A stretch of 64,000 bases of DNA from Roseivirga ehrenbergii (GTDB lineage: Bacteria > Bacteroidota > Bacteroidia > Cytophagales > Cyclobacteriaceae): contig NZ_LQZQ01000045.1 of the NCBI RefSeq assembly GCF_001593005.1, positions 434,001 to 498,000 of the forward strand. Direction: 5' to 3'. Of this stretch, positions 44,751-51,884 are shown in pieces (the stretch's first letter is position 1; each line of letters starts with the position of its first letter). The notes under the pieces were generated by a model that was given only the letters and a program-made list of their open reading frames with translations, was not told where the DNA came from and did not search any database. A program made the position numbers and the translations under genes.

Positions 44751-45116
44751 CTAAATCAATAGCTCATTAATTCTAGGAATCACTTTTTCAATGAGGTGAG
44801 CCTTGTCAAACACTTCAACTTTCAAGTCTGGGTTCAAGCTTATATCCTTAGCATCAGCACCAGTAATTATTAGAAATTTATCGGTTTTAAACTTGCCAGA
44901 TTTGCTAAGTATTGAAGCCAACTCAGTACCTGATAATGTAGGCATATTCTGATCGGAGATAATTAAATCATACTTTTTTTTCTCTATAAGTAACAATGCA
45001 TGGTCTCCGTCTTGAGCCTCATCAATTTCAATTTCACCATCGACCAACATACTCAGAAAGTCTGCAGTTGTTTTACGCATGTCTTCATGGTCATCAATGA
45101 TCAAAACGCTTTTCAT
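44751..45116 (-). CDS. Single-domain response regulator
   Basis: 121 aa receiver domain only. Acidic pair Asp8/Asp9, phosphoacceptor Asp55 in IISDQNMP, Thr85 and Lys105 are all in place. There is no output domain and no neighbouring histidine kinase, so it is an orphan receiver, possibly in a phosphorelay or acting through protein contacts. Confidence 0.88.
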   Translation of the reverse strand: MKSVLIIDDHEDMRKTTADFLSMLVDGEIEIDEAQDGDHALLLIEKKKYDLIISDQNMPTLSGTELASILSKSGKFKTDKFLIITGADAKDISLNPDLKVEVFDKAHLIEKVIPRINELLI

Positions 45117-45438
45117 AAATCTAAATATATGATTGTATAGGGTAACAGTATGAAAGTTAAATGAGGAGAAAGGTCCTGTATCATAATCTTAAATATACTC
45201 ACGTATATGATTGTGCTCAGGTTTGTGTTAGTTGAGGTTTGGAAAGATACAATCAATCCTTGATAAATCAAGAAGGTAAAGTTTAAAGATTTATTACAAC
45301 TTCAGTGTTTATCTCTTACAATAAAACGATTTGTGCTTTAATTCTATACTGCTAGAGGTTGGTCTAATTGATTGGTGACCAATTGAATAAAGTAAGGATT
45401 ATGAAGATACTCCCATATAAAAGAAATAAGATAAAAAA
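45117..45438. other. Intergenic stretch without a supported gene
   Basis: About 320 bases between the response regulator start and the rtcB terminator. TATATGATTGT occurs twice (45126-45136 and 45204-45214). A short inverted repeat ATATAC/GTATAT lies near 45193-45208. No gene or clear promoter is seen. Confidence 0.4.
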
Positions 45439-45463
45439 GAGAGGTGAAATTAATCCACCTCTC
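45432..45463 (-). terminator. Intrinsic terminator of the rtcB operon
   Basis: On the minus strand an 8-base perfect stem GAGAGGTG/CACCTCTC is followed by CTTTTTT. The upstream arm lies inside the last codons of rtcB, so termination is immediate. Confidence 0.85.
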
Positions 45464-46871
45464 CGAACTTCTCACCTCCACACATTCTTACCACTTTAGG
45501 GGTAAAAGTGCCAAGCACTTCTACTAAATCGGTCTGATGTGCCATTACCTCATGTATGTTTTTATATACTTGAGGTGCCTCATCCAAACCTGAGCCAATA
45601 AGTGTTACTCCTGCTTTTTTGATGTGCTTCTTCACTTCCTTTTTAGAAAGTGTTTGCTTGGCTCGGGTTCTAGAAAGTATCCTTCCAGCTCCATGCGAAG
45701 CTGAATTGATGGATTCCACATTACCTTTGCCTTTTACAATAAAGCCAGGGGAGGTCATCGAGCCGGGGATAATCCCCAAAACTCCTTCACCCGCAGGAGT
45801 AGCTCCTTTTCTGTGTACAATGACTTCATTTCCATCTAAATCTTGCTCTTTCCAGGCAAAGTTGTGGTGGTTTTCAATCATTGCCAGTGGCTTTTCTCCC
45901 AAAGCAGCGGTCAGTCTTTCATGAATTTGATGGTGACAAGCCGAAGCGTAATCACCAGCCAAATTCATGGCCAACCAGTATTCCTGCCCAGCTTCTGTGG
46001 CTAAATCCAACCATGCCAAATGTTTGGCTTCTCCCGGTAACTTGGTCATATCCATGGCCAGCTTGGTGTAATGTCTCGCGATATTCGCACCAAGTCCCCT
46101 CGATCCCGAGTGAGAAAGTACCGAAAGGTATTTGCCAATTGGCAGGTTAAATTCATTGTCACTATTCAGGATTTCAGCAATACCCAATTCCACAAAGTGA
46201 TTGCCACCTCCTGAAGAACCAATTTGCATCCAAGCCCTGTCTTTCAATGATTTCAGAATTTTGATTTCATCGAAAAGTGAGCTTTCAAGCACCGCATGAT
46301 CCTTCGGTCTCTTAAAAACCGCCTGACCAAATTTGGTGTTCTCCAAAAGCATGTTCTTCAAAGCTTCAATACTTTGATGGGCAAAAGCAGGAGGAATATC
46401 ATAAATAGTCATACACATTCTACATCCGATATCGACACCGACAGCATAAGGAATTACTGCATTGTTTGTGGCCAATACCCCACCAATCGGTAATCCATAG
46501 CCTTGGTGCGCATCGGGCATTAAGGCTCCATGCTTGGTTACTGGCAGCTTCATTGCAATCTCCATTTGGTTGATTGCGCCCTGCTCAATCCCCTCTGCAC
46601 CATATATACTATAAGGTATGCGCTTTTCTCTCAAAGCTAAAGTTTCATTGTGCTCTGTTTTAATGATTAAAGCCATTGCCACAGGGCCAAGTACTTCATG
46701 CTTTAAATAAAGACCAGGGTTTCCAACCACTTTCTTTAAAGCAGCTTTCTTATGTAGAATGGATTTTCCCTTGAAATGCTCTTCCAGTACCTTCATGGCT
46801 TCACCAATGGCTCTGCCTTCAGGAAACCCGAGCTTTCTCAAGTCTTTTCCAGTTAATTTTCTCGTTGCCAT
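45450..46871 (-). CDS. rtcB: RtcB-family RNA ligase
   Basis: About 473 aa from the second ATG (46871, MATRKLTGKD); an ATG three codons upstream is also possible. RtcB joins RNA ends with 2',3'-cyclic or 3'-phosphate to 5'-OH ends through a guanylylated His. Visible active-site blocks are MPDAHQGYGLPIGG, GVDIGCRMCM (Mn-binding Asp/Cys), GSSGGGNHFVELG, LSHSGSRGLG and NSASHGAGRILSR with the GMP-accepting His. It is last in a unit with the TPR and slipin genes and a tRNA-like array. No rtcA or rtcR is nearby. Its start region overlaps the end of the TPR gene. Confidence 0.92.
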   Translation of the reverse strand: MATRKLTGKDLRKLGFPEGRAIGEAMKVLEEHFKGKSILHKKAALKKVVGNPGLYLKHEVLGPVAMALIIKTEHNETLALREKRIPYSIYGAEGIEQGAINQMEIAMKLPVTKHGALMPDAHQGYGLPIGGVLATNNAVIPYAVGVDIGCRMCMTIYDIPPAFAHQSIEALKNMLLENTKFGQAVFKRPKDHAVLESSLFDEIKILKSLKDRAWMQIGSSGGGNHFVELGIAEILNSDNEFNLPIGKYLSVLSHSGSRGLGANIARHYTKLAMDMTKLPGEAKHLAWLDLATEAGQEYWLAMNLAGDYASACHHQIHERLTAALGEKPLAMIENHHNFAWKEQDLDGNEVIVHRKGATPAGEGVLGIIPGSMTSPGFIVKGKGNVESINSASHGAGRILSRTRAKQTLSKKEVKKHIKKAGVTLIGSGLDEAPQVYKNIHEVMAHQTDLVEVLGTFTPKVVRMCGGEKFGEVD

Positions 46872-47377
46872 AATTTCCAACGGTTTTTAATTCTCTTGTA
46901 CTTATTTCTCTTAATATGCTTTTTCAGTTCATCCACATTGTCATTGTCGAATGAAGCGAAAAGACCTTTTCGGTAGTGTTGAATGGCTTCTTTATAATTG
47001 CCAAGCGCCTCTTCAACCATCCCGATTTCTTCATGTACAAAGGCTTTATCAATGCTATCTACCTTGATTGCTTTCTTCATAAGCATCTTAATTCCTTCGT
47101 ATTTTTTATGATCCAGATAGAGCATAGCGAGTTCTTCATATACCTCTTTATAATCTGGTTTAAAACGTAAGGCCAATTGATAATGCCTTTCGGCCAATGC
47201 CAGATTAATATGATGATAATGATACATGTCACCAAGTTTAGCGTGTAATTTTGGGTAGCCTGGTTCTTCCATCAGCCCGTTTTCATACAGTCTTTTGGCT
47301 TCCTCATAGCGTCCATCATACATGGCATCTTCTGCCAACTGAATCACATTTTCGATGTATTCTTCGTAAATGTCCAT
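46853..47377 (-). CDS. Small TPR-repeat protein of the rtcB operon
   Basis: 174 aa consisting almost entirely of TPR helices (about residues 12-150, for example PDYKEVYEELAMLYLDHKKY and AFVHEEIGMVEEALGNYKEA). The tail is very basic (KKHIKRNKYKRIKNRWKLWQ) and could bind RNA. It lies between slipin and rtcB and overlaps the latter, so it is probably an adaptor linking membrane-bound slipin to the ligase. That link is inference. Confidence 0.8.
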   Translation of the reverse strand: MDIYEEYIENVIQLAEDAMYDGRYEEAKRLYENGLMEEPGYPKLHAKLGDMYHYHHINLALAERHYQLALRFKPDYKEVYEELAMLYLDHKKYEGIKMLMKKAIKVDSIDKAFVHEEIGMVEEALGNYKEAIQHYRKGLFASFDNDNVDELKKHIKRNKYKRIKNRWKLWQREN

Positions 47378-47391
47378 TGTGTTTAAATTCA

Positions 47392-47414
47392 GAGGGCAGG
47401 GGATACCTGCCCTC
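47392..47414. promoter_or_regulatory. Strong hairpin before the TPR gene
   Basis: GAGGGCAGG and CCTGCCCTC are perfectly complementary 9-base arms around a 5-base loop, ending 15 bases before the TPR start codon on the minus strand. It is GC-rich compared with its surroundings. It may be an mRNA processing or stabilising structure, or part of a repeat element. Confidence 0.5.
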
Positions 47415-47460
47415 AGGTTTTTAGTTTATTCATAATCAAATTCTAATAGCGAATCTATTT

Positions 47461-47565
47461 AAATCCACCCCCTTCAGCGGGGGGAAGCAGGCATTGTCGG
47501 TTTTACCGAAACGTTTTACTCACCTCTACCGCTGTCCTCCCTTGGGGGAGGTTGGAGGGGAATTT
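47461..47565. repeat. GC-rich intergenic repeat element between slipin and TPR genes
   Basis: About 105 bases with C/G-run hairpins at each end (CCCCCTTCAGCGGGGGG and CCTCCCTTGGGGGAGG) and roughly complementary outer edges. This kind of short element recurs in Bacteroidota genomes. Its insertion separates slipin from the TPR gene without obvious disruption. Confidence 0.5.
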
Positions 47566-47566
47566 T

Positions 47567-48667
47567 TCACCTAGAGAAAATCTCCTTCAATTGATCTACC
47601 ACTTGGTTACCACCAGAGAGTGAGATGTTGTTGATCTTATCCGCGATCTTTTCAACATATTCCATCTCTTTCAACTTGAACAACATTTCGTTGTCTTCCA
47701 TCAATTTAGCGGTGTTCAACAAGCTTCTGGTAGAAGCCGTTTCTTCCCTTCTGGTGATTACGTTGGCTTGCGCTTGCTTTTGAGCTATCAATACTTGGTT
47801 CATGATGTTTCTTAATTCTCCAGAAAGGATGATGTCCTTGACACCACAGTCTCTGATTTCAATTCCCAATGTATCGGCTTTGCTCTTCAAGAATCCTTTT
47901 ACATGTTCCGCAATAGCAGATTTTTGTTCTAGTAATTCATCAAGCGAGTAGTTACCAATGTATTCCCTTAAGGCCATCTGCATCAATACATAGAGCTGCT
48001 TATCAGCATCTTTGTTATCGATGAGGTATTTTTCAATATCAGCCACCTTGTATTGGCAGTTGAAGTTGATTCGCAAGCCAGCTTTGTCGCTGGTCAAGAT
48101 TTCCTGACCAGAAATTTCCATCTGCAATTGCCTCATGTCAGCTTTTAGCACAGTAACGGCAGTGGTGTTTTTCCAGAAGTAGTAGATGCCTTTGTCTAAT
48201 ACTTTGTCAAATTTTCCATCCACCATCAAAAGGCCTTTTTCATAAGATTCAACCACAAATACTCTGAGGTATTTTAGCACTTCGGTAGTGGTAAGTATCG
48301 CCCTGCTGATGTCCTGAGTGATATTGAAGTCACTCAAGTCAACTCTGGTAAACGTGTGTTCTACAAGCCCTTTCCAGAAAGCGTATTTTCCTACAGTTAG
48401 TACTGATTTAAATCTACCGTCAGCGTATTGAATTACAATCTCATTGTCCTTCACATCTACTACCATTAACATAGAAGCTAGCGTTGTGTCTTTCAAAAGA
48501 AGGTTCAAGTCTTTTGAAGTGTAGAATTGATCGGTAAGGCTATATACCATTACGGTTTCCGATAGCGATATCCAGGTTGTGCCCGCAGTGATCACTCTTC
48601 GGTAATCGCCATTTTTGAAAACCAAACCGACTTTTCCTTCGTTGATTCGTACTCTTTTCATTTTCAA
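47567..48667 (-). CDS. Slipin (SPFH/band-7 protein) of the rtcB operon
   Basis: 366 aa. An N-terminal repeat-like beta region with EGKVGLVFKNGDYRRVITAG and GKYAFWKG motifs is followed by an SPFH/band-7 domain (about residues 140-290). A coiled C-terminal segment contains IAQKQAQANVITRREE, typical of slipins. There is no strong transmembrane helix, so membrane contact may be peripheral. Alternative start at 48661. It lies directly after the tRNA-like array and upstream of TPR and rtcB, suggesting a membrane-associated RNA-repair complex. Confidence 0.85.
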   Translation of the reverse strand: MKMKRVRINEGKVGLVFKNGDYRRVITAGTTWISLSETVMVYSLTDQFYTSKDLNLLLKDTTLASMLMVVDVKDNEIVIQYADGRFKSVLTVGKYAFWKGLVEHTFTRVDLSDFNITQDISRAILTTTEVLKYLRVFVVESYEKGLLMVDGKFDKVLDKGIYYFWKNTTAVTVLKADMRQLQMEISGQEILTSDKAGLRINFNCQYKVADIEKYLIDNKDADKQLYVLMQMALREYIGNYSLDELLEQKSAIAEHVKGFLKSKADTLGIEIRDCGVKDIILSGELRNIMNQVLIAQKQAQANVITRREETASTRSLLNTAKLMEDNEMLFKLKEMEYVEKIADKINNISLSGGNQVVDQLKEIFSR

Positions 48668-48918
48668 ATTGGTTGTGAGGTTGCCCCCTGTTAAACATAT
48701 ATTTATCGCTATTGGCCAAATAGTTTTTTTCTTAAGAAAGGGGAGAGGGCAAACCTTTTGTCGAAAACGGGAGCTCCATTGAGTCTGAATTCACCAATGA
48801 GTTTTTGAAAGTTTGAATCATGAGTGGAGAAATTATCTTCTTTTCAATCATCTCTTTTTCAGAAAGTCATCAGTTGCATCAGGCGGTATCCTGTTGCCCT
48901 GGTCTTTTTCAAAATGCT

Positions 48919-48945
48919 CCATAGTTCTCCCTAAGGTTACTATGG
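48919..48945 (-). ncRNA. Hairpin downstream of tRNA-like module A
   Basis: Seven-base perfect arms CCATAGT/ACTATGG around a 13-base loop, within the transcript between the array and slipin. Its role is unknown. Confidence 0.4.
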
Positions 48946-48954
48946 GATTTGCCC

Positions 48955-48975
48955 GACACCCCCCTTTCAGGTGTC
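48955..48975 (-). ncRNA. Hairpin just after tRNA-like module A
   Basis: Six-base perfect arms GACACC/GGTGTC around a 9-base loop, 12 bases beyond the variable-arm-like hairpin of module A. It could mark the 3' end of that RNA. Confidence 0.4.
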
Positions 48976-48986
48976 ACCGTTTTTTA

Positions 48987-49078
48987 AGAAGTCGGTACTT
49001 CTGAAATCAATAGAACCAAAATCTATCGCGTTTAACCACTCCGCCATCCCTTATTCAGGGAGTGGGATTCGAACCCAC
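48987..49078 (-). ncRNA. tRNA-like module A, circularly permuted class II layout
   Basis: Read on the minus strand, the parts come in permuted order. T-arm: 49078-49062, stem GTGGG/CCCAC and loop TTCGAAT. Closed acceptor-like hairpin: 49061-49047, TCCCT/AGGGA. Two bases TG follow, at positions 8-9. D-arm: 49044-49028, GCG/CGC with a GG-containing loop. One G comes next, then an anticodon arm (49026-49010, ATAGA/TCTAT, loop TTTTGGT) and a variable-arm hairpin (49002-48987, AGAAGT/ACTTCT). Every junction length is that of a true tRNA. The body resembles tRNA-Leu, and the apparent anticodon UUG does not fit Leu. A standard linear tRNA reading fails because the acceptor halves would not pair. Confidence 0.65.
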
Positions 49079-49086
49079 ATGATTGA

Positions 49087-49154
49087 TGTGTCACTCTAAC
49101 CACTGAGTTATCTCGAATGTATCGAGAGAGGGATTCGAACCCTCGTCCTACACG
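49087..49154 (-). ncRNA. tRNA-like module B, circularly permuted / Y-RNA-like layout
   Basis: The minus-strand order is as follows. CGTGT (49154-49150) is followed by AGGAC (canonical variable-loop bases 44-48). The T-arm is at 49144-49128 (GAGGG/CCCTC, loop TTCGAAT). A perfect closed acceptor hairpin TCTCGA/TCGAGA lies at 49127-49111 with loop TACAT. TA follows (positions 8-9), then the D-arm (49108-49093, ACTC/GAGT, loop AGTGGTTA), G26 and ACACA. The outer ACAC pairs with GTGT as an anticodon stem. This is the topology of the tRNA-mimic module of bacterial Y RNAs and of permuted tRNA genes. CATAA just upstream resembles a Met anticodon-loop 3' part. Confidence 0.65.
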
Positions 49155-49157
49155 TTA

Positions 49158-49174
49158 TGGTGGGATTTTCACCA
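49158..49174 (-). ncRNA. Hairpin upstream of module B
   Basis: TGGTG/CACCA stem with a seven-base loop. It abuts the outer stem of module B and overlaps the CATAA segment, so the two structures may compete. Confidence 0.4.
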
Positions 49175-49188
49175 AATAATAAGCAGCA

Positions 49189-49211
49189 TACCGTGGCCTA
49201 CTGGCTCGGTA
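49189..49211 (-). ncRNA. Hairpin between tRNA-Tyr-like RNA and module B
   Basis: TACCG/CGGTA arms with an inner GCC/GGC stem and a four-base loop. No tRNA part is recognised here. Confidence 0.35.
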
Positions 49212-49235
49212 CTATGAGGGCTCTACTGAAACCCA

Positions 49236-49256
49236 CATCAGGTCTTATACCCGATG
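49236..49256 (-). ncRNA. Hairpin after the tRNA-Tyr-like RNA
   Basis: Eight-base arms CATCGGGT/ACCTGATG (one G-U) around a 5-base loop, ten bases past the 3' end of the tRNA-Tyr-like RNA. It may help 3' processing. Confidence 0.4.
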
Positions 49257-49266
49257 GTCATCCCGT

Positions 49267-49348
49267 GGAAATGGTAGGATTCGAACCTACTCAGCCTTAG
49301 GCATCGGTTTTACAGACCGATATAACTCTCCTGCTTTATCGCATTTCC
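49267..49348 (-). tRNA. tRNA-Tyr(GUA)-like RNA, non-canonical
   Basis: An 82-base cloverleaf in normal order. The acceptor GGAAATG/CATTTCC has 7 perfect pairs. The D-arm is ATAA/TTAT with a GG-containing 10-base loop. The anticodon arm is TCGGT/ACCGA with loop CTGTAAA (anticodon GTA). A 13-base class II variable arm (GCC/GGC) and a T-arm GTAGG/CCTAC with TTCGAAT follow. The discriminator is A and CCA is not encoded. Odd points are C instead of U at position 8, an all-A/U D-stem, and the location inside the rtcB operon. It may be a genuine extra tRNA-Tyr or a tRNA mimic. Confidence 0.7.
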
Positions 49349-49389
49349 ATATAGTTTATTCATTCATCGTTTAGGCGACCTATGGCCAT

Positions 49390-49423
49390 AAAAAAAGCCC
49401 GACCTTATACAGATCGGGCTTTT
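49390..49423 (-). terminator. Intrinsic terminator 2, between small frame 2 and the tRNA-like array
   Basis: On the minus strand a 12-base stem (AAAAGCCCGATC paired with GGTCGGGCTTTT, one G-U) has a 7-base loop and is followed by further T residues. It lies upstream of all the larger genes of the operon, so expression of rtcB needs read-through or a further promoter. Confidence 0.85.
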
Positions 49424-49445
49424 CAATGCCGTGAGTACGGTATTG

Positions 49446-49565
49446 TCAAGTCATAATTCCCCGATCTTTTTGCAAAAGATATATTTTACCTGCTCCAGAG
49501 TCATAATGACTCAGGTTATCCATAGGTGAGATCCACATGTTTAATCCTTCTATTTTCTTCTGCAT
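49446..49565 (-). CDS. Small frame 2 (39 aa), candidate peptide
   Basis: ATG at 49565 to TGA at 49446. Its middle contains ISPMDNLSHYDS, similar to AQPMEALFGFDS in the preceding small frame (shared pattern P-M-acidic-x-L-x-x-aromatic-D-S). It lies between two intrinsic terminators. The paralogy with frame 1 is the main reason to think it is translated. No function is known. Confidence 0.45.
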   Translation of the reverse strand: MQKKIEGLNMWISPMDNLSHYDSGAGKIYLLQKDRGIMT

Positions 49566-49583
49566 ATTCAAACCTTTTTAAAA

Positions 49584-49612
49584 CAAAAAACCCGAACCAA
49601 ATGGCCCGGGTT
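49584..49612 (-). terminator. Intrinsic terminator 1, after small frame 1
   Basis: On the minus strand a 10-base stem (AACCCGGGCC with GGTTCGGGTT, two G-U) and loop ATTT are followed by TTTT. It is 22 bases beyond the stop of small frame 1, giving a peptide-plus-terminator cassette. Confidence 0.85.
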
Positions 49613-49634
49613 TCGATATTTCGTTGTGTTGAAA

Positions 49635-49730
49635 TTAACGTATATTCCCAAGCCTAATTACATCACTATCAAAGCCAAATAATGCTTCCATTGGCTGTGC
49701 TATAAGGATATGTGAGTAATTGCTTTTCAT
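49635..49730 (-). CDS. Small frame 1 (31 aa), candidate leader peptide
   Basis: ATG at 49730 to TAA at 49635, starting about ten bases after the predicted transcription start, with an A-rich upstream region suited to Bacteroidota translation. The central AQPMEALFGFDS resembles ISPMDNLSHYDS of frame 2. No run of a single regulatory codon is seen, so classical attenuation by starvation for one amino acid is not obvious. Confidence 0.5.
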   Translation of the reverse strand: MKSNYSHILIAQPMEALFGFDSDVIRLGNIR

Positions 49731-49746
49731 TTTCTTTTCTGTGCTG

Positions 49747-49779
49747 CAAATGTACTGAAATTGATTTCTGATATCCAAA
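49747..49779 (-). promoter_or_regulatory. Promoter of the tRNA-like array/rtcB region
   Basis: On the minus strand TTTG (49779-49776) and TACATTTG (49754-49747, exact TAnnTTTG) are 21 bases apart, a good Bacteroidota promoter. Transcription should begin near 49740, just before small frame 1. Confidence 0.65.
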
Positions 49780-49966
49780 TAAAATTTTTTGTTCATTTGT
49801 TTTTACGGCTTAAATTAATTATTTAAGTGTCTGTATATCAGCACTATGTCCTTAAAATAAAAAATTGAAAATTGACTTGGGATATGTCCGCTTTCATAAA
49901 TTAAATTGAATAAACGGTTTTACGGGTTTACGGAATGTTCATTCAATTTTTCGCCTGAACTCTTTA

Positions 49967-50944
49967 TTACTTGGTCATATCTAATAGCACTTTTCCGCTT
50001 CTTCCTGGAGCTTCCATATGCTCAATGGCTTTGGCGATTTCATCAATACCATAATAAGCCTCAACATCTGCTTTTAATTCTTGCTTGGTTAGCATAGTCA
50101 ATACTTCAGGAATAATGGTGGAACGCTGTTCTCTGGTCAAGCTGGCCATCCATGTACTTAGCCAAAAGCCTTTGATGGTCAAGTTTTTGAAAATCAAAAG
50201 TCCTGAATTCAGCGGAATAGGCTGAAGGCTCAATAGTCCGTAAACAAACATTTTTCCATTGGTTTGCATGGCATTCAATACCTTGTCGCCAAGCTCTCCA
50301 CCCACGGCATCAAAAGCGGCTTTCACCATTACACCCTCGGTTGCAGCTTTTACAGTTTTATAGATGTTTTCTGTTTTTTCATTGATAATGGCTTTAGCTC
50401 CCAAATCGAGTAAAGCTTGCTTTTGCTCATCGCTGCGTACTGTGCCTACTACATTGATTCCACGTTGCGAAGCCAATTGAATGACAAATTTGCTGAAAGC
50501 TGAGTTGGCCGCTGTTAACATTAGCCAATCTCCTGCTTGTAAATCGGCTTCCATGAGCATGCCATAAGCGGTAAATGGATTTACAAAGGCTTGACAAGCT
50601 ACATCATCGCTCATGGTCTGTGGTTTTGGAATGGCAGTTTTGGCTGGGATACAAACATACTCTGCCCAAACACCCGAACCTGTGAAAATCACGCCCGTAC
50701 CCAATGGCATTTCTACGCCTGCACCACAAGCATCTACCGTTCCGGTACCTTCAAAACCGCCAATTTGAGGTAATTCTGGTCTGATGCCATACTTGCCCTG
50801 AATAAACATAATATCGGCAGGAATAATATTCGCCTTGGTAACTTTTACTCGAATCTCGCCTTCGGCTGGTTCCGGTTTTGGGAGTTGAACGACTTTAAGT
50901 ACTTCGGTGGGTAGGCCTAGGGTGGTAAATTGGACTGCTTTCAT
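49967..50944 (-). CDS. Zinc-independent MDR/quinone-reductase-like oxidoreductase
   Basis: About 325 aa from the ATG at 50944 (MKAVQFTTLGLPTEV). An in-frame ATG at 51019 lies inside a repeat-derived region and is unlikely. The N-terminal GroES-like part has GGFEGTGTVDACG, and the Rossmann part has GDWLMLTAANSAFSKFVIQLA, in which the usual glycine-rich loop is altered to TAANSA as in MECR-type 2-enoyl reductases. It is divergent from an SDR gene, with which it may share regulation. Confidence 0.85.
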   Translation of the reverse strand: MKAVQFTTLGLPTEVLKVVQLPKPEPAEGEIRVKVTKANIIPADIMFIQGKYGIRPELPQIGGFEGTGTVDACGAGVEMPLGTGVIFTGSGVWAEYVCIPAKTAIPKPQTMSDDVACQAFVNPFTAYGMLMEADLQAGDWLMLTAANSAFSKFVIQLASQRGINVVGTVRSDEQKQALLDLGAKAIINEKTENIYKTVKAATEGVMVKAAFDAVGGELGDKVLNAMQTNGKMFVYGLLSLQPIPLNSGLLIFKNLTIKGFWLSTWMASLTREQRSTIIPEVLTMLTKQELKADVEAYYGIDEIAKAIEHMEAPGRSGKVLLDMTK

Positions 50945-50959
50945 GATTTTTCTATTTAT

Positions 50960-50992
50960 TTGAAAAGACTGCTTCGTTCCTCGCAGTGACGA
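50960..50992. repeat. Remnant of the palindromic intergenic repeat
   Basis: GACTGCTTCGTTCCTCGCAG followed by TGACG repeats the outer ends of the element at 29622-29675 with its middle missing. Confidence 0.5.
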
Positions 50993-51008
50993 AAGGTAAA
51001 TACTCGTC

Positions 51009-51050
51009 ATGCATAACAAATTAAATTATTTATCTTGGCTATGCATAACA
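51009..51050. promoter_or_regulatory. Paired direct repeats between divergent oxidoreductases
   Basis: ATGCATAACA occurs at 51009-51018 and again at 51041-51050, 32 bases apart (about three helical turns). The pair lies between the two divergent start codons. Each copy includes the palindrome ATGCAT. It could be a shared operator. Confidence 0.45.
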
Positions 51051-51065
51051 ATAGCTGAAAAACCC

Positions 51066-51833
51066 ATGCAGATATCTGAGAAATTTGAATTAAAAGGAAA
51101 AGTTGCCATTATCACAGGTGCCAGTAAGGGCATCGGAAAATACATTGCAATGGCTTTGGCACAACAAGGCGCAACGGTTGTGGTGTCGAGCAGAAAGTTA
51201 GAAGCGGTGGCCGAAGTAGCTGAAGAATTTAAATCGAAAGGTTTGGAAGCGGTGGCTTTTCCTTGTCATATGGGGGATGATGAACAAATTAAAGCTTTGG
51301 TGGACAGTACCATTAAAAACCTAGGCGGTATCGACATTATTGTGAACAATGCGGCTGCCAATCCAGTATTTGGACCTGTGCAAGAAGCTGGTGATGACGC
51401 TTTTGACAAAATTATGGACGTGAATGTAAAAGGCCCTCTCAATTTGGCCAAATACGCTTACGAAAGTATGAAGAGTCGCGGGGGCGGTTCTGTCATCAAT
51501 ATTTCTAGTATCGAAGGAATTACCCCTGGGCATGGTTTGGGACTGTACTCTGTCAGTAAAGCGGCTTTGATTCAACTGACCAAGGTTTTGGCTAGGGAAT
51601 GGGGCCGAGACAGTATCCGTGCAAATGCGATTTGTCCGGGACTGATTGATACCAAGTTCAGCGAAGCACTTACCAGTAATGAAAAGATTATGAAAGTGGT
51701 GATGATGAAACAAGCCTTGCCTATGCTCGCCCAACCAGAAGATATCGCGGGACTAGCGCTGTTCTTGGCTTCTGATGCCTCCAAGTTTGTTACTGGTGCT
51801 GTGATTTCAGCCGATGGAGGGTATACGGTTTAG
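51066..51833 (+). CDS. Short-chain dehydrogenase/reductase
   Basis: About 255 aa from the ATG at 51066 (MQISEKFELKGKV). An earlier in-frame ATG at 51009 lies within the direct repeat. The cofactor loop is TGASKGIGKY, NNAAANP follows, Ser and YSVSKAAL give the catalytic Ser/Tyr/Lys, and the C-terminal FVTGAVISADGGYTV is typical. The family covers FabG-like and many other reductases, and the substrate is unknown. Confidence 0.9.
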   Translation: MQISEKFELKGKVAIITGASKGIGKYIAMALAQQGATVVVSSRKLEAVAEVAEEFKSKGLEAVAFPCHMGDDEQIKALVDSTIKNLGGIDIIVNNAAANPVFGPVQEAGDDAFDKIMDVNVKGPLNLAKYAYESMKSRGGGSVINISSIEGITPGHGLGLYSVSKAALIQLTKVLAREWGRDSIRANAICPGLIDTKFSEALTSNEKIMKVVMMKQALPMLAQPEDIAGLALFLASDASKFVTGAVISADGGYTV

Positions 51834-51884
51834 TTAATTAGTATATTGGTTATTAGTTATAAGTGTTGAAAATCAATCAATTTC

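Follow-up and report, generated by a model that had tools for sequence, protein, structure and literature searches.

Permuted tRNA mimics occur as a conserved pair in the leader RNA upstream of slipin genes in Bacteroidota

The tRNA-like element that a first-pass annotation had singled out as Module A belongs to a conserved pair of permuted tRNA mimics, of which it is one half; the pair lies within a structured leader RNA that precedes a gene for slipin. The window analyzed here comprises 64,000 nucleotides (contig NZ_LQZQ01000045.1, positions 434,001 to 498,000) of the 4.24 Mb genome of Roseivirga ehrenbergii, and the closest named relatives of its slipin are those of Roseivirga. Read along the minus strand, the locus carries a Tyr-like linear tRNA, a two-hairpin element, modules 1 and 2, an H-type pseudoknot, the remainder of the leader and the genes for slipin, a TPR protein and the RNA ligase RtcB. 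Module 2, the former Module A, has the shape of a complete tRNA that is opened next to the variable region and keeps its anticodon arm intact, and module 1 is a tRNA-like domain of the Y RNA (YrlA) type opened at the anticodon; short loops close the acceptor stems of both.

The slipin gene (47567-48667, minus strand, as are all features of the locus) encodes an SPFH/Band_7 protein (PF01145, E 8.8e-34) and is followed by those of the TPR protein (46853-47377, matching TPR families) and of RtcB (45450-46880; PF01139, E 4.7e-79), the latter being present as a single copy in the whole genome. Between the pseudoknot and slipin lie about 300 nt of leader (48668-48975), in which a terminator scan found no terminator-like site on the same strand. 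The two-hairpin element (49188-49236), 5' of module 1, could be aligned in 75 segments. Its hairpin H1, the loop of which resembles TTTCNGTATA, has seven pairs formed in 69 to 75 of the 75 segments, and H2 (GTACCG...CGGTAT) has seven formed in 53 to 75 of them, with several pair types among the segments in H1 and H2. The Tyr-like (GUA) tRNA (49266-49348; RF00005, 46.9 bits) is the first element of an array of linear tRNAs and carries C, not U, at position 8; ARAGORN reported no tRNA within the window, not even this one. Immediately ahead of it, at about 49565-49390, inspection by eye showed a short ORF (about 39 codons) and then a terminator-like hairpin, which is missing from the results of the terminator scan probably because of its long loop.

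Module 2 spans positions 49010-49078. Its T-arm (GTGGG-TTCGAAT-CCCAC, 49078-49062) is followed by an acceptor hairpin (TCCCT-GAATA-AGGGA, 49061-49047) and U8-G9, then by a D-arm (GCG-GAGTGGTTAAA-CGC, 49044-49028) and by the anticodon arm (ATAGA-TTTTGGT-TCTAT, 49026-49010). As in a circularly permuted tRNA, the 3' part comes before the 5' part and every arm is present, so the arm order described at first pass was confirmed. The same was true of the apparent anticodon UUG with G37 in the loop TTTTGGT, a loop identical to that of the host's own tRNA-Gln(UUG); ordinary genes for this tRNA and for Leu tRNAs are already present in the same genome. Stem lengths had been taken as normal, but the acceptor stem has only 5 bp and not 7. 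The linear cloverleaf with a paired acceptor stem that defines an ordinary tRNA (RF00005) was not found either. The RF00005 match in this region (49117-49054, 31.7 bits) straddles both modules and would need the acceptor strands TCGAGA and TCCCT, which are unable to pair, and ARAGORN gave no gene; an ordinary linear tRNA was therefore rejected. Module 2 likewise lacks the cuttable acceptor spacer, the discriminator and the CCA, or CCA addition, of a permuted tRNA that matures. Its acceptor loop in the window has 5 nt, and among the 62 modules that have an anticodon arm and a parser score of at least 33 (from 53 loci) the loop measures 3-8 nt in 50, with CCA near its start in six.

The body of module 2 had been called Leu-like, which holds for the Leu/Ser-like D-arm but not for the class II variable arm. 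The sequence assigned to that arm, AGAAGT-ACCG-ACTTCT, is more convincingly interpreted as stem 1 of an H-type pseudoknot (48976-49002), in which stem 1 (AGAAGT/ACTTCT) is followed by the linker TAAAAAA and by a strand that pairs with the loop to form stem 2 (ACCG/CGGT, with CGGT at 48979-48976). A hairpin, an A-rich linker and a loop-pairing strand were found in this arrangement in 45 of 53 loci, as against a mean of 14.2 and a maximum of 22 in mononucleotide shuffles. The pseudoknot was preferred to a class II variable arm on the basis of this count and because it occurs 3' of modules of both the class I-like and the class II-like kind. In some loci (L042, L046, L050, L051, L059, L060 and others) an extra hairpin with an anticodon-like loop of 7 nt, such as ATGGA-CTCAAAA-TCCAT, stands right after the anticodon arm; by pattern it is present in 19 of 52 loci, some of these hairpins being plainly T-arms, with about one expected in shuffles.

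Module 1 (49088-49153) lies directly 5' of module 2 and consists of a base stem, a V-like AGGAC, a T-arm, a capped acceptor hairpin (TCTCGA-TACAT-TCGAGA) and a D-arm. The base stem takes the place of the anticodon stem and pairs the strand before the T-arm with the strand after the D-arm. In the window it has only 4 bp (GTGT/ACAC); all five pairs are formed in 51 of 76 modules, the null being 19%, with stems as diverse as TCTGT/ACAGA, TCTAT/ATAGA, ACTAA/TTAGT, CTTGT/ACAAG and AACAT/ATGTT. Most loci have no anticodon loop in module 1. A local anticodon arm, CACAT/ATGTG, was considered and rejected, as a full arm of this kind was found in just seven of the 76 modules against 51 with the base stem.

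The order base stem, T-arm, acceptor hairpin and D-arm is that of YrlA (RF02553), the type of bacterial Y RNA found in rsr-yrlBA-rtcBA RNA-repair operons, and like YrlA module 1 adjoins RNA-repair genes that include RtcB. A passage in one report describes YrlA as resembling the D, T and acceptor arms of tRNA on a base stem (PMC8394870). The RF02553 model gave 32.8 bits on module 1 in the window, below the gathering cut-off of 69, and it gave no match above 69 bits in 59 related genomes, TROVE-linked loci included, the best score in these relatives being 49.1. From our own reading of the coordinates, the match sits on the slipin leader in 17 of the 19 genomes with a strong slipin (27-49 bits) and near the TROVE gene in seven of nine TROVE genomes (about 25-46 bits). 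Since nine of 14 control genomes also match weakly, the score by itself proves nothing; it is the topology and the covariation that identify module 1 as YrlA-like. Unlike the known YrlA systems, the window genome and 16 of the 19 strong slipin genomes have no gene for Ro60/Rsr (TROVE, PF05731). The slipin leaders also differ from YrlA in their second, complete, anticodon-bearing capped tRNA shape and in the pseudoknot, whereas the TROVE-side loci with Y RNA-like units (among L145-L151) showed one tRNA-like domain only, with no additional capped module bearing an anticodon arm.

Conservation was followed through slipin relatives in the 59 related genomes (26 matched, 19 of them strong) and in a named genome collection (80 of 85 loci kept). 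Most slipin loci with enough upstream sequence have one to three T-arms, each with an acceptor hairpin and a D-arm immediately behind it. The acceptor strands pair at five or more of seven positions in 139 of 146 modules near slipin (81 loci), as against a mean of 18.8% and a maximum of 29.2% when strands were swapped between loci (1000 swaps), and 118 different acceptor combinations occur among the slipin-linked modules. This test finds modules by T-arm and D-arm only and does not require pairing; identical sequences were dropped, and the D-arm motifs were drawn up after the sequences had been seen. Covariation was measured in an alignment of 26 sequences (A1), made of the window, which replaced the near-identical L030, and of 25 of the 26 other segments found; L080 was omitted, as its anticodon arm had been parsed wrongly. 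In A1 94.9% of the cells are paired and covariation is 0.626 versus 0.213 in shuffles (0/500). Both sides have changed at 33 of 41 pairs (25.1 in shuffles), and structures slid along the alignment gave covariation of 0.06-0.17. Such double-sided changes occur in all eight helices, four in each module, with the base stem and the anticodon stem among them. In the position names that we assigned, U8, A14, G19, T54-C56 and A58 do not vary in either module, nor does U33 in module 2; thus the core of a tRNA has been kept and its 3' end lost. The loci are related, and so these counts do not represent independent events. With acceptor pairing far above the swap null and double-sided changes in every helix, the permuted tRNA is not a product of chance. 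The first-pass annotation had proposed to give up the idea if, among other things, orthologues showed no compensatory changes, and both the swap test and the alignment speak strongly in the opposite direction.

We searched 395 Bacteroidota genomes with a covariance model, R1, that covers both modules. The model is unspecific as such, 356 of these genomes scoring at E<=1e-4 with many matches to ordinary tRNA genes, and the 30 loci fetched turned out to be 16 permuted pairs and 14 ordinary tRNA genes. The pairs scored 81.5-123.3 bits over 141-161 nt, with no ARAGORN gene beneath the match; 123.3 bits is the value for the match to module 2 of the window, the sequence of which is part of the R1 alignment. 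A slipin relative lies beside the pair, downstream of it, in 16/16 cases and beside the ordinary tRNA genes in 0/14. The 16 pairs include that of the window, and some of their genomes may overlap those behind A1. RtcB lies on the same strand downstream of slipin in 26 of 73 loci with enough sequence and upstream of the array in others; judging from positions, the best RtcB of several Aquimarina genomes is roughly 20-30 kb upstream of slipin, and in two of the 16 genomes searched (G068 and G069) none was found. A TPR relative follows slipin in 14 of the 73 loci where the downstream sequence is long enough. Slipin is therefore the constant partner of the pair and RtcB a frequent, not a universal one. 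No slipin relative was found in viral contigs.

A few observations concern the neighbouring genes. Between R. seohaensis (L030) and positions 45001-51860 of the window, the array and leader are 94.9% identical and the flanks 89-92%, with only 75.7% identity in the slipin stretch, a mosaic that looks as if slipin alone had been exchanged. Aquimarina and relatives (G059-G064) have a second, distant RtcB with 32-35% identity to that of the window, in several cases a few kb from the first. In Flavobacterium orientale (L156), two proteins adjoining RtcB are predicted to be nucleotidyltransferase-like from their first residues only.

Among the 62 modules with an anticodon arm, U33 was found in 61 (the parser favors U33) and a purine at position 37 in 57. 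The anticodon loop is identical to a Roseivirga tRNA loop of the window genome in 30 modules, the copied loops being those of Lys (13), Asn (7), Met-type (5), Gln (2), Tyr (1), Thr (1) and Phe (1) tRNAs, and 32 loops have no exact match in the reference tRNA set. In two near-identical pairs of modules (L053/L057 and L062/L076) the anticodon is the sole difference. Across 13 close pairs, 4 of 39 anticodon positions differ versus 3.4% elsewhere, which is suggestive of, but not strong evidence for, a turnover of the anticodon above that of the rest of the module.

Linear tRNAs precede the pair in many loci. Of 80 loci, 44 have ARAGORN tRNAs within 5 kb upstream of slipin, 252 in all, every one of them on the slipin strand. 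Asp, Phe, Gln, Tyr, Cys, Asn, Glu, Arg(ACG), Leu(UAG), His, Ser and Lys tRNAs dominate; Ala and Met are absent (almost none), and Gly, Val and Thr nearly so. U8 is missing in 42 of 218 distinct array tRNAs, Tyr-like ones among them; by eye, U8 is present in the 33 canonical tRNAs of the window genome that were compared. Loci L042, L044, L049, L060 and L064 each have a run of 13-16 linear tRNAs on one strand within this distance.

From the structure and the slipin linkage shown above we infer a function for the pair. This RNA probably imitates tRNA rather than serving translation. As the acceptor loops are short and the anticodon loops often copy those of real tRNAs, we read it as an unchargeable tRNA mimic, which may well act as bait and alarm for anticodon nucleases next to the ligase RtcB, with slipin as platform; we hold this reading tentatively. 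The leader RNA would give rise to no tRNA and would fold into two linked L-shapes without chargeable ends, module 2 displaying a real anticodon loop as bait. Enzymes that cut anticodon loops, such as toxins of rivals or phage-triggered nucleases, would be tied up or would cut the mimic instead of tRNA. A cut mimic would remain folded, with 2',3'-cyclic phosphate and 5'-OH ends, and could be resealed by RtcB; the linear tRNAs upstream could serve as further targets or spares, and slipin as a membrane-bound platform. The compensatory evolution of eight helices, the invariant tRNA core, the 30 copied loops and the constant linkage to slipin are consistent with a bait, and of the two fates suggested at first pass for the element that of a decoy or sensor holds up. 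On the other side stand the 32 unmatched loops, the 4 changes in 39 anticodon positions and the absence of RtcB from two genomes and from the immediate vicinity in many loci.

Related systems bear on the same question. Hughes 2020 suggests that the tRNA-like domain of YrlA may be a competitive inhibitor of an anticodon nuclease and also reports, which counts against a bait, that YrlA fragments were undetected under tRNA-cutting conditions (PMC7790460). An account of the 26-tRNA trn operon of Anabaena states that its repressor TrcR also controls rtcB and a slipin (PMC10272220), so that there, as here, a tRNA array, RtcB and slipin are functionally joined. However, Anabaena belongs to another phylum, the genes are not adjacent, the connection is made by TrcR, and permuted mimics go unmentioned in the portion of that paper at hand.

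A scaffold or a cis-regulatory role would yield the same conservation as a bait. Y RNA tethers or gates Ro60 and PNPase, and the two tRNA shapes could tether or gate slipin, RtcB, the TPR protein or an exonuclease such as PNPase in a similar way, with the anticodon arm as an extra handle. The YrlA topology of module 1 and RF02553 scores resembling those of Ro60-linked Y RNAs of the same order are in agreement with this, but Ro60 is present in only three of the 19 strong slipin genomes, the scores stay below the cut-off, the model also matches control genomes, the Y stem seen beside Ro60-linked Y RNAs was not seen at the slipin leaders, and the copied anticodon loops are left unexplained. We consider such a scaffold rather unlikely.

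The second possibility is that the tRNA-like shapes steer read-through or translation of slipin and the following genes, for example in a tRNA-damage response or by binding ribosomes. The pair precedes slipin in every locus found by the RNA model, and no RtcR regulator was found in the window genome, so that damage sensing could be RNA-based. Part of the work on yjdF describes tRNA-like leaders without a free 3' end that boost translation, the riboswitch being, like the pair, a tRNA-shaped mRNA leader (PMC9142559). The yjdF riboswitch is nevertheless a small-molecule switch with neither a permuted pair nor a link to RNA repair. A regulatory leader of this kind is unlikely given the lack of a same-strand terminator-like site between the modules and slipin and the distance of about 300 nt from the pseudoknot to the start codon.

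The first-pass annotation had also raised a route in which RtcB joins the ends of the element and removal of the acceptor loop leaves a class II tRNA; in a true permuted tRNA gene RNase P/Z would cut the loop and the tRNA would be a working one. In red algae, green algae and Thermofilum, circularly permuted tRNA genes show the same precedence of the 3' part and the same set of arms, and a bulge-helix-bulge junction and joining into working tRNAs are described for them (PMC3978253). The full set of arms, the conserved tertiary signature bases, RtcB in the same cluster and CCA near the start of six loops would fit this route. Yet the acceptor loops are mostly short (3-8 nt in 50/62), the acceptor stem in the window has 5 bp, the anticodon does not match the body, a genuine variable arm is missing, an anticodon loop is entirely absent from module 1, and ordinary tRNAs for these codons exist; the short loops and mismatched anticodons set the pair apart from the algal and Thermofilum genes and make maturation into tRNA very improbable. 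Accidental hairpins in the remnants of a decaying tandem tRNA array, which the same-strand linear tRNAs upstream and the loss of U8 in some of them might recall, are contradicted by strong covariation in both modules and by the 16/16 linkage to slipin and can hardly be entertained.

We class the tRNA mimic proposed here as a variant of the Y RNA-like tRNA mimics; there is a real chance that it represents a new RNA family. As we suggest with reserve, that family might be a decoy coupled to RNA repair: of its two circularly permuted tRNA bodies, both lacking free ends, one resembles Y RNA and the other presents an exchangeable anticodon loop, and the decoy would bait or sense anticodon nucleases and be resealed by RtcB. 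A literature search of limited extent returned no description of such a paired permuted RNA, and tRNA-like RNAs in operons of this type may already have been noted in work on RNA repair and Y RNAs. In the part of a 2014 review that deals with them, bacterial tRNA genes are described as structurally uniform, with permuted tRNAs in Archaea and algae and none in Bacteria (PMC4033280). In contrast to that uniformity, many Bacteroidota carry a permuted, capped tRNA shape that is supported by covariation, linked to slipin and often close to RtcB. If our interpretation is true, Bacteria would have their first permuted tRNA architecture that includes an anticodon arm, and the Y RNAs a branch independent of Ro60. 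Two questions are made testable by this RNA, namely what the natural substrates of bacterial RtcB are and why tRNA-like Y RNAs adjoin repair enzymes, and, should the bait idea be right, the anticodon loops would be a record of the nucleases that these bacteria have met.
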